From Desulfomonile tiedjei DSM 6799 (lineage in GTDB: Bacteria > Desulfobacterota > Desulfomonilia > Desulfomonilales > Desulfomonilaceae), in contig NC_018025.1 in NCBI RefSeq assembly GCF_000266945.1, positions 3,352,001-3,416,000 on the forward strand: 64,000 nucleotides of DNA, written 5' to 3'. The notes beneath the pieces are model-generated. The model made no database searches, was not told the DNA's origin, and saw nothing but the letters and a program-made list of their open reading frames with translations. Of this stretch, positions 24,016-25,860 are shown in pieces. Position 1 is the stretch's first letter. Every line of letters begins with the position of its first letter. Position numbers and translations under genes: made by a program.

Positions 24016-24435
24016 TCAGTCCAATTCTTTGCCCGTGGTGGTCATCGTAATCTTGCCGTGCTTGACTCCCCGTGTGGAAATCAACTGTTCCCCGGCTTTG
24101 CGCACCTCTTCGGAACCACCGCGCATGATAAGGACCTCAAGACAATTGTGCTGGTCGAGATGGACGTGCACCGCCGAAACGATAAGATCGTGTTTGGTGT
24201 GCTGAATTTCCGTCAATTTCTGAGCTAGATCGCTTTGCTCGTGATTGTAAACTACCGTTACCGTCCCTACCACGTCGTGCGTAGATTGGCTCCATTCGTG
24301 ATCCACCAGGCGATCCCGTATGAGATCGCGAATAGCTTCAGACCGGTTTGTATACCCCTTGTTCGAAATAAGTTCGTCAAACCTTTCCAACAGATCGTCA
24401 GGAATGGAAACCCCGAATCTCACCAGATCCGCCAT
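24016..24435 (-). CDS. nikR: Nickel-responsive transcriptional regulator
   Basis: A 139-aa NikR. It has an N-terminal ribbon-helix-helix (VRFGVSIPDDLLERFDELI, then YTNRSEAIRDLIRDRLVD) and a C-terminal ACT-like metal-sensing domain. Expected Ni ligands are visible as a histidine in HTKHD, the VHVHLDQHNCLEV cluster (two His and one Cys) and neighbours. GGGAGG lies seven bases before the ATG. It represses nickel uptake genes when Ni(II) is bound. No nik transporter is in the window; nickel enzymes (hydrogenase, CODH) would be expected elsewhere. Confidence 0.93.
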   Translation of the reverse strand: MADLVRFGVSIPDDLLERFDELISNKGYTNRSEAIRDLIRDRLVDHEWSQSTHDVVGTVTVVYNHEQSDLAQKLTEIQHTKHDLIVSAVHVHLDQHNCLEVLIMRGGSEEVRKAGEQLISTRGVKHGKITMTTTGKELD

Positions 24436-24574: not shown

Positions 24575-24940
24575 TTAAGACTGAGATTCTTTGAGTTTCT
24601 TTTCAATATTATCCACTATACATTTTGCCCAGACATCAGTGACCGAGTAGATCATCTCGAGCCCCTGCCGTGTGGACGTTATGATGCCCCTGCTCTTTAA
24701 GTGAATGAGATGCTGAGATACCGTAGCCTGATGAAGTCCCAGGCACTCTTGCATATTCTTCACGTTACAGCCCCCGACTTTCAGCAGACCGTATACGATT
24801 TTCAAACGAACCGGGTGCCCCAGCGCCTTAAAGATTTCGGCCTCTCTGGAAAATTCCAGTTTCTTTATCTCGTTAAACAGTTCTGTCAGATCCTCGGTCT
24901 CTTCGCCTGTTTCATACTGAGTTCTTGTGGGCTCATTCAT
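24575..24940 (-). CDS. ArsR-family transcriptional regulator
   Basis: A 121-aa winged-helix protein. The ArsR fold is seen as AEIFKALGHPVRLKIVYGLL, a GGCNVKNMQECLGLHQATVSQHLIHLKSRGII recognition region (two Cys at about 59 and 66) and RQGLEMIYSV wing. The metal-site ELCVCDL motif of classical ArsR is absent; the cysteine pair could instead sense thiols, sulfide or redox, as in SqrR/BigR. It is the last gene of an operon with a thioredoxin-like protein and a possible selenopeptide, and may autoregulate through the palindrome at 25892. Confidence 0.85.
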   Translation of the reverse strand: MNEPTRTQYETGEETEDLTELFNEIKKLEFSREAEIFKALGHPVRLKIVYGLLKVGGCNVKNMQECLGLHQATVSQHLIHLKSRGIITSTRQGLEMIYSVTDVWAKCIVDNIEKKLKESQS

Positions 24941-24970: not shown

Positions 24971-25120
24971 TCAGTCTTTTCCTTTGGCGCATCCGTTCTG
25001 TTTCGTCCGATCCGCGGACTTGGCGGGAGCCATTCACGTGGCAACACCTGCGCGCGGCAACAACCACATGTTAACAACAAACCAGCCAATGACTAATCCG
25101 ATAATTAAAAGCAATTCCAT
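24971..25120 (-). CDS. Candidate 49-aa membrane selenoprotein with in-frame TGA (Sec29)
   Basis: ATG at 25120 has GGAGA about five bases upstream. The first 24 residues are a membrane helix (ELLLIIGLVIGWFVVNMWLLP) followed by RAGVAT and then TGA (25036-25034). Read through as selenocysteine, the frame continues 20 more residues, Met-Ala-Pro-Ala-Lys..., to a cysteine (Cys44) and a lysine-rich end before a second TGA at 24973-24971. A five-base-pair hairpin lies 14 bases after the TGA, within the range of a bacterial SECIS. It sits between a thioredoxin-like gene (17 bp) and an ArsR gene (30 bp), as expected for a redox peptide. If TGA is a plain stop, a 28-aa peptide remains. Confidence 0.55.
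25005..25019 (-). promoter_or_regulatory. Candidate SECIS hairpin
   Basis: On the minus strand GTCCG-CGGAT-CGGAC forms a perfect five-pair stem with a five-base loop whose second base is G. The loop starts 19 bases after the in-frame TGA at 25034. Bacterial SECIS elements generally lie just after the UGA with a small apical loop having an early G. The stem is short, so this is only suggestive. Confidence 0.35.
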
Positions 25121-25137
25121 ATATTTCTCCATTCAGC

Positions 25138-25860
25138 TCATCTGCGCTGAAAAGCAAGAGCTGCAGATCCATTGAACGCGTGTTCCTCAGATCCACTGAG
25201 AATCCGATCCAGCCATTCGGGAAGTCCGGGTGCAGTTTCTCGCAATTTTTCGCTCAGAAGTCCGGTCACCCACTTCGTAACGGACGGATTGCTCCAGGGT
25301 ACCAGCCCCATGTGAGTAGCCACGACTTTTCCCTCTTTATTGATCACGTACGTGGACGGAAAGCCCTTCACTTCGTAAATTGCCTCATTCGAGCCATTCA
25401 AAACGAAGTACCCCAAAAGCTTTCCTCGCACCATATTCTCCATCACGGCCTGGCGATTGCCGACTCTCGTCACAATGGTGAAGGGTCCTTTTGCGTAGTG
25501 GGTTTTCGACCGCACCCAGGATGGGTCGTCCCAAAGATTTACACATAATACGGCCAGGTCACTGTTCTGAAGAGAGTGCATCATGGAGGTTAAATGGGTC
25601 TTCTCAATGTCGCAGTAAGGGCAGTTCTTTCTCCAGAAATTGAGCAAGACCACCTTTCCTCTGTAACTGGCGAGATTCACGATTTTTCCATCGAGCGTAC
25701 CCATCTGAAAATCGTTTGCGTCCGCGGGATTGCTGAAGATCTGAAACTCGGCCCCTTTAGGTCCTGTTGTCGAGGTTGCTGCGCCCGCCCCCAGACAAAT
25801 CGTAAAGATCAGTATCACTGCGAGAGTTCCTGATGAACACCATTTTGCCACGAACACCAT
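25138..25860 (-). CDS. Exported thioredoxin-fold protein (TlpA/ResA-like)
   Basis: A 240-aa protein with a signal peptide (LAVILIFTICLGAGAA). Its TlpA-like domain has GKVVLLNFWRKNCPYCDIEKTHL with the redox CPYC active site and a cis-proline region GFPSTYVINKEG. About 30 extra residues (near RNRQAVMENMVRGKLLGYF) lie between the central strands, as in TlpA. It would act in the periplasm as a thiol-disulfide oxidoreductase. The next two genes are a possible selenopeptide and an ArsR regulator, suggesting a stress-controlled redox unit. Confidence 0.85.
   Translation of the reverse strand: MVFVAKWCSSGTLAVILIFTICLGAGAATSTTGPKGAEFQIFSNPADANDFQMGTLDGKIVNLASYRGKVVLLNFWRKNCPYCDIEKTHLTSMMHSLQNSDLAVLCVNLWDDPSWVRSKTHYAKGPFTIVTRVGNRQAVMENMVRGKLLGYFVLNGSNEAIYEVKGFPSTYVINKEGKVVATHMGLVPWSNPSVTKWVTGLLSEKLRETAPGLPEWLDRILSGSEEHAFNGSAALAFQRR

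Follow-up and report, generated by a model that had tools for sequence, protein, structure and literature searches.

The latest published inventory of prokaryotic selenoproteins, from May 2026, catalogs 119 families, among them rhodanese-like, DsrE-like, Tso, SAO, OS_HP, and GOS proteins (PMC13188914). The bacterial selenoproteins in this catalog resemble the peptide described here in having a UGA-encoded selenocysteine (Sec), a downstream bacterial SECIS, and a redox-type motif. However, none of them is a single-helix micropeptide with LPxxGVxTU, and we found that no family in the inventory has the motif or the build of the peptide and that the word "transmembrane" is never used there. No Pfam or NCBIfam model scored above noise for any of 27 members of the peptide family, and no description of the peptide was found in the main text of the papers on deep-Sep and GOS. 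The original prediction called it possibly undescribed. This agrees with what we found in Pfam, NCBIfam, and the 2026 inventory, and an earlier naming in literature beyond that covered is possible. The family escapes gene callers, as the stretch ahead of the TGA is just 28 residues long.

Eukaryotic SELENOK and SELENOS are small single-pass proteins with a short noncytosolic N terminus and Sec in a basic cytosolic tail. The bacterial peptide is similarly small and is predicted to be single-pass with Sec in a basic tail; its orientation is predicted from charge, and we claim no sequence kinship. It differs in its length of about 50 residues, in a SECIS that lies inside the coding region, in the position of Sec near the helix, and in a Cys five residues on.

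Two regulatory systems are also close. The bigR sulfide detoxification operon consists of BigR, Blh, and TauE (PMC5823870). Planctomycete and SAR324 loci of the peptide likewise pair ArsR/BigR-like regulators with a metallo-beta-lactamase (MBL)-type dioxygenase, rhodanese, or TauE, but they add the selenopeptide and, in planctomycetes, a sulfide:quinone oxidoreductase (SQR)-like flavoprotein. In contrast, the locus described here has no dioxygenase beside its ArsR gene, and the ArsR protein scores 42 bits against a BigR cutoff of 155. In deltaproteobacteria, the three-selenoprotein operon Tso also has a selenoprotein next to an ArsR-type regulator. However, our ArsR protein scores 27.8 bits against a TsoR cutoff of 115, and no Tso model matches the peptide.

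A short membrane peptide gene with an in-frame TGA

The window is a 64,000-nucleotide stretch of the Desulfomonile tiedjei DSM 6799 genome, whose two contigs total 6,527,027 bases, with 6,500,104 in the larger. Direct translation of the minus strand from 25120 to 24971 gave MELLLIIGLVIGWFVVNMWLLPRAGVAT-TGA-MAPAKSADRTKQNGCAKGKD-TGA, and nothing comparable was found when the same coordinates were read on the plus strand. The original prediction of a GGAGA site, an ATG, and a single membrane helix was correct, though for the minus strand. The 49-codon gene occupies positions 24974 to 25120 (stop TGA, 24973 to 24971), with a Shine-Dalgarno-like GGAGA just 5′ of the ATG at positions 25126 to 25130. 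Codon 29 is the in-frame TGA (25036 to 25034), after which 20 codons stay open to the second TGA, as had been predicted.

The predicted stem-loop 14 nucleotides (nt) past the TGA, with a G early in the loop, was found as a 5-bp SECIS-type hairpin, GUCCG-CGGAU-CGGAC (25005 to 25019, minus strand). Its loop starts 19 nt past the UGA, and G is the second loop base. This hairpin fits the bacterial SECIS criteria (a G as the first or second base of the apical loop, which lies 16 to 37 nt past the UGA, and a stem of 4 to 16 bp). It is short, at −5.1 kcal/mol alone, and the 44-nt segment reaches −11.4 kcal/mol, which is no better than shuffled sequence (SECIS energy criterion, −7.5 or lower).

We found that the helix spans residues 2 to 23 in an AlphaFold2 model (pLDDT of about 90), followed by an unstructured tail, and the helix is also clear by hydropathy. 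The peptide is very likely anchored in the membrane. The first six residues have a mean net charge of −0.5, and about six Lys or Arg residues follow the helix. By the positive-inside rule, the Sec-bearing tail is predicted to lie on the cytoplasmic face.

The peptide gene had been placed between a CxxC thioredoxin-like gene and a cysteine-containing ArsR gene in an operon with one promoter. The gene arrangement stands. A TlpA/ResA-like (AhpC-TSA) thioredoxin-fold gene with a CxxC motif and an N-terminal hydrophobic segment (25138 to 25860, minus strand; PF00578, 1.2e-15) ends 17 nt upstream of the peptide open reading frame (ORF). The gene for an ArsR/SmtB-family regulator with Cys58, Cys66, and Cys107 lies downstream on the same strand (24575 to 24940; NF033788, 8.6e-21, above the cutoff). 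The single promoter did not find support, as a sigma-70 scan of the locus gave no signal beyond that of shuffled sequence. We also found a gene for the nickel-responsive regulator NikR behind the ArsR gene (24016 to 24435, minus strand; NF003381, 5.5e-66), which the original prediction did not describe.

Relatives of the peptide and coding beyond the TGA

In a search of relatives, 48 of 60 had a match at an E value of ≤1, and every match down to about 1e-2 has TGA at the site. A profile of 27 members matched 171 of 395 genomes sampled over the phylum; two of the weakest of these matches (G052 and G094) are probably false. Weak matches that appeared to be stop-free simply end short of the TGA, which is present once the frame is extended. 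We saw no Cys forms of the peptide among these 395 genomes, and because the profile carries Cys at the Sec column, such forms would have scored at least equally.

We then scanned GTDB genomes with an 8-row alignment; 21 diverse rows were too variable for a pattern scan. The scan gave 212 confirmed relatives, of which the best 80 were retrieved. By their record names, these 80 come from Desulfobacterota/Desulfuromonadales, Planctomycetota, Acidobacteriota, Spirochaetota, Myxococcota, SAR324, and Calditrichota. The reading allowed TGA or a Cys codon, and TGA was found in all 79 readable loci among the best 80 of 212. The genomes counted here represent sampled species; many are metagenome bins, and some of these may be contaminated. 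Judged by sequence comparison, the helix-TGA-tail arrangement is beyond chance and recurs in hundreds of genomes. The family would add to the bacterial selenoproteome and, being found in 43% of the sampled genomes of the phylum, would rank among the more widespread selenoproteins there.

The relatives share the helix, followed by [ILV]-L-P-[RK]-x-G-[VI]-x-T-U-[ML]-S-x-x-C. The original prediction had pointed to a GV-x-T turn in similar peptides, which the family motif bears out, and had looked to homologs that extend past the TGA, which we found with [ML]-S-x-x-C conserved after the site. Over the five codons past the TGA, codon differences of a single base between members are synonymous 54% of the time when read in frame 0; the other two frames give 15% and 28%. 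For the Ser two residues past the site, 54 of 125 members use TCN and 39 use AGY. A Cys codon (TGC or TGT) stands five residues past the site in 98 of the 125; the remaining 27 include the window peptide, whose Cys lies further along. The codons compared lie ahead of most of the hairpin, and RNA structure is therefore not the explanation for their conservation.

We next compared the hairpin across the family, requiring a G at loop position 1 or 2 and a loop 14 to 29 nt past the TGA. Such a hairpin with a stem of at least four pairs occurs in 120 of 125 members; shuffled controls have one in 52% of cases and genomic controls in 65%. The mean energy is −7.8 kcal/mol in members versus −1.4 to −1.9 kcal/mol in controls. 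In a set of 30 members that share a single TGA-to-loop distance, each of the seven stem pairs shows changes on both sides, and 95.7% of cells pair. Double-change cells number 51, against 14.4 ± 2.8 in shuffles, and the covariation score was reached in none of 500 shuffles. The 30 members were picked partly by pairing of the inner three pairs; the outer four, which lay outside that choice, covary most. Covariation was lost when the partner was slid by one to three columns.

Ordinary termination is the default reading of a TGA. It would leave a 28-residue membrane peptide, with the downstream sequence untranslated or part of a separate ORF, and an ATG directly after the TGA in many members could serve as a restart. 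We found, however, that residues past the TGA are conserved in frame, that the hairpin covaries, that no clear homolog seen has TAA or TAG at the site, and that Cys takes the place of the TGA in genomes without Sec machinery (see below). The next codon is often one for Leu, Gly, Val, or Ile, which is not a start. Stop and restart was rejected on this last point and on the frame 0 selection, and termination at this codon is almost certainly the wrong reading. Codon 29 is, as far as sequence can tell, nearly certain to be read as Sec.

Three variants of the family were seen along the way. Two family matches each in the f19 genomes G058, G095, G130, G158, and G185 suggest paralogs. The f35 members L195, L197, and L201 carry TULxPxNRQxAV with no Cys soon after Sec, a subtype without the U-x4-C pair. 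In one genus (L199, L204, L206, and L210; genomes G340, G240, G302, and G321), there are two in-frame TGAs, in ...PSUGAP...PTUDGxSC, and these genes possibly encode a double-selenocysteine micropeptide.

Sec machinery and Cys forms

The original prediction made the selA, selB, and selC genes a test of the Sec reading, and we found SelA, SelB, and tRNASec-UCA in the genome. SelB (E ≤ 1e-65) is present in 353 of the 395 phylum genomes, so its co-occurrence alone discriminates little; we used SelA and the Sec/Cys contrast instead. SelA was found in 11 of the 12 Sec-form genomes in which SelB had been missed or fell below the cutoff. Outside the phylum, 24 of 29 genomes have SelB above the cutoff; the four without any SelB match have a SelA match, which in one of these falls below the cutoff.

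Cys-codon orthologs at the Sec position, also proposed as a test, were found in three cases, all planctomycete. Convincing members occur in 24 of 246 planctomycete genomes, 21 with TGA and three with Cys (TGT, TGT, and TGC). SelB and SelA are both absent from the three Cys-form genomes. In contrast, SelB was found in the 13 Sec-form planctomycetes searched with them, apart from one in which SelA was found. The loci of the two forms are of shared types. Two Cys forms are flanked by an MBL-fold/rhodanese gene and an SQR-like flavoprotein gene; a flavoprotein gene of this type also follows the Sec forms of L123 and L128, and those of L167 and L178 come just after a lactamase-fold gene of the same type. 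For the third Cys form, the setting is a zinc finger/YgaP-TM/bd-oxidase-like locus type, which it shares with the Sec forms in L133 and L142. An exchange of Sec and Cys that tracks the Sec machinery in this way is the classical signature of a selenoprotein. Since Sec is kept almost everywhere and Cys was seen only where the machinery is absent, the family offers a clean natural Sec/Cys test.

The genome also has a tRNASec-like gene with the Cys anticodon GCA directly before a second, divergent selB (L032, 1501 to 1592, and L040; C1:3562734-3564838). These two genes fit the selC*/selB* pair of Mukai 2017 (as cited in PMC7609411) and stand beside the full canonical Sec system. Such pairs are known in Syntrophobacterales and Desulfobacterales (PMC7609411). 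A selC* tRNACys, a tRNASec-like molecule, could decode the UGA as cysteine together with its own SelB* in lineages where its anticodon is UCA, and the presence of the pair in the genome speaks for this. However, the anticodon here is GCA, which reads UGC and UGU and not UGA, and on this ground we rejected selC* decoding for this genome. The canonical tRNASec-UCA, selA, and selB are present as well, and members of the family in other phyla occur along with SelA and SelB. We regard decoding as Cys as extremely unlikely.

We propose instead that UGA codon 29 is decoded as Sec through SelB and tRNASec-UCA, as directed by the hairpin that follows it. Taking these data together, we put a probability of about 0.6 on the whole chain of argument short of an exact substrate, namely, that the window peptide represents a new and widespread family, made up of single-pass membrane selenopeptides of about 45 to 70 residues that act as redox relays.

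Gene neighborhoods and proposed function

According to our model, the single helix would anchor the peptide and hold Sec a few residues past its end. Sec and the Cys five residues on probably form a reversible selenenylsulfide, for which the U-x4-C spacing appears suitable; the Cys is displaced further along in the window's genome. The peptide would then act as a selenol relay at the membrane surface, a redox role that we consider reasonably likely. The relay may move or reduce reactive sulfur (persulfide or polysulfide) between the membrane and soluble partners. These partners would be thioredoxin-fold proteins in Desulfomonile, SAR324, and others and a persulfide dioxygenase/rhodanese and sulfide:quinone oxidoreductase in planctomycetes.

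We found that the TlpA-like gene adjoins the peptide in many Desulfomonilaceae genomes and that the order ArsR and then NikR is kept downstream through much of that family. This thioredoxin-ArsR-NikR setting is conserved only in Desulfomonilaceae, and the neighbors differ elsewhere. Among 133 peptide-adjacent genes, there are 8 redoxin and 3 thioredoxin matches, and the top families listed for 133 far genes include none of this kind; about seven of the thioredoxin-fold neighbors represent one inherited TlpA linkage in Desulfomonilaceae. Linkages independent of this one involve thioredoxins (L061, L148, and L176) and, at a greater distance, a peroxiredoxin (L144). Planctomycete loci have MBL-dioxygenase/rhodanese, TauE, and SQR-like genes near the peptide. 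A bd-type-oxidase-like gene is close to it in L133, L137, L142, and L232; in L133 and L232, a YgaP-like TM gene lies behind the peptide and a zinc finger (zf-HC2)-type gene lies before it. Many members of the family have no obvious functional neighbor.

The resemblance of the planctomycete and SAR324 loci to the bigR operon led us to favor a membrane-surface selenol relay for reactive sulfur. This substrate assignment, drawn from gene context, is tentative, with odds somewhat short of even. The TlpA-like partner looks periplasmic and the predicted Sec side is cytoplasmic, which counts against our overall reading, as do the short hairpin of the window peptide gene, the one inherited linkage behind most redoxin matches, the members that lack an obvious functional neighbor, and the 27 with no Cys five residues past Sec. 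A broader version, which we hold to be rather doubtful, is that the peptides are membrane-tethered selenol carriers in several phyla, passing sulfane sulfur (or electrons) from quinone-linked enzymes at the membrane surface to soluble partners (thioredoxin, rhodanese, or dioxygenase). They would in effect provide a protein-bound selenol as a substitute for glutathione-type thiols.

The main rival to a reactive sulfur relay is a general antioxidant role. Sec would act near the quinone pool to reduce hydroperoxides, of lipids or of other kinds, with thioredoxin-like partners recycling it, and the sulfur genes would be incidental. Thioredoxin neighbors, the peroxiredoxin in L144, and terminal oxidases (COX1 in L161 and the bd type in L133 and L142) are consistent with this. 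However, the planctomycete and SAR324 operons center on enzymes of the sulfide/persulfide type. Furthermore, the groups carrying the family include strict anaerobes, in which the peptide is common, and we therefore consider this role unlikely.

The ArsR and NikR genes that follow the peptide through Desulfomonilaceae, together with a CDF cation efflux gene adjoining it in L118/L119, would suit the handling of metals or metalloids (arsenic, nickel, mercury, or selenite) at the membrane under ArsR/NikR control. This is quite unlikely, since the NikR and CDF links are limited to single lineages and no conserved metal transporter was found at other loci. A short ORF ahead of a regulator gene, as in the window, could also be a selenium-sensing leader peptide, in which the Sec supply sets read-through and hence downstream expression. 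The helix and tail are conserved, however, Cys forms exist in genomes without Sec machinery, and many members have no same-strand gene close behind. All three points make a leader peptide very unlikely.

The operons of the family suggest a so far unstudied step at the membrane in sulfide/persulfide or thiol redox chemistry. Separately, the conserved position of NikR behind the peptide and ArsR hints at nickel or shared regulation.
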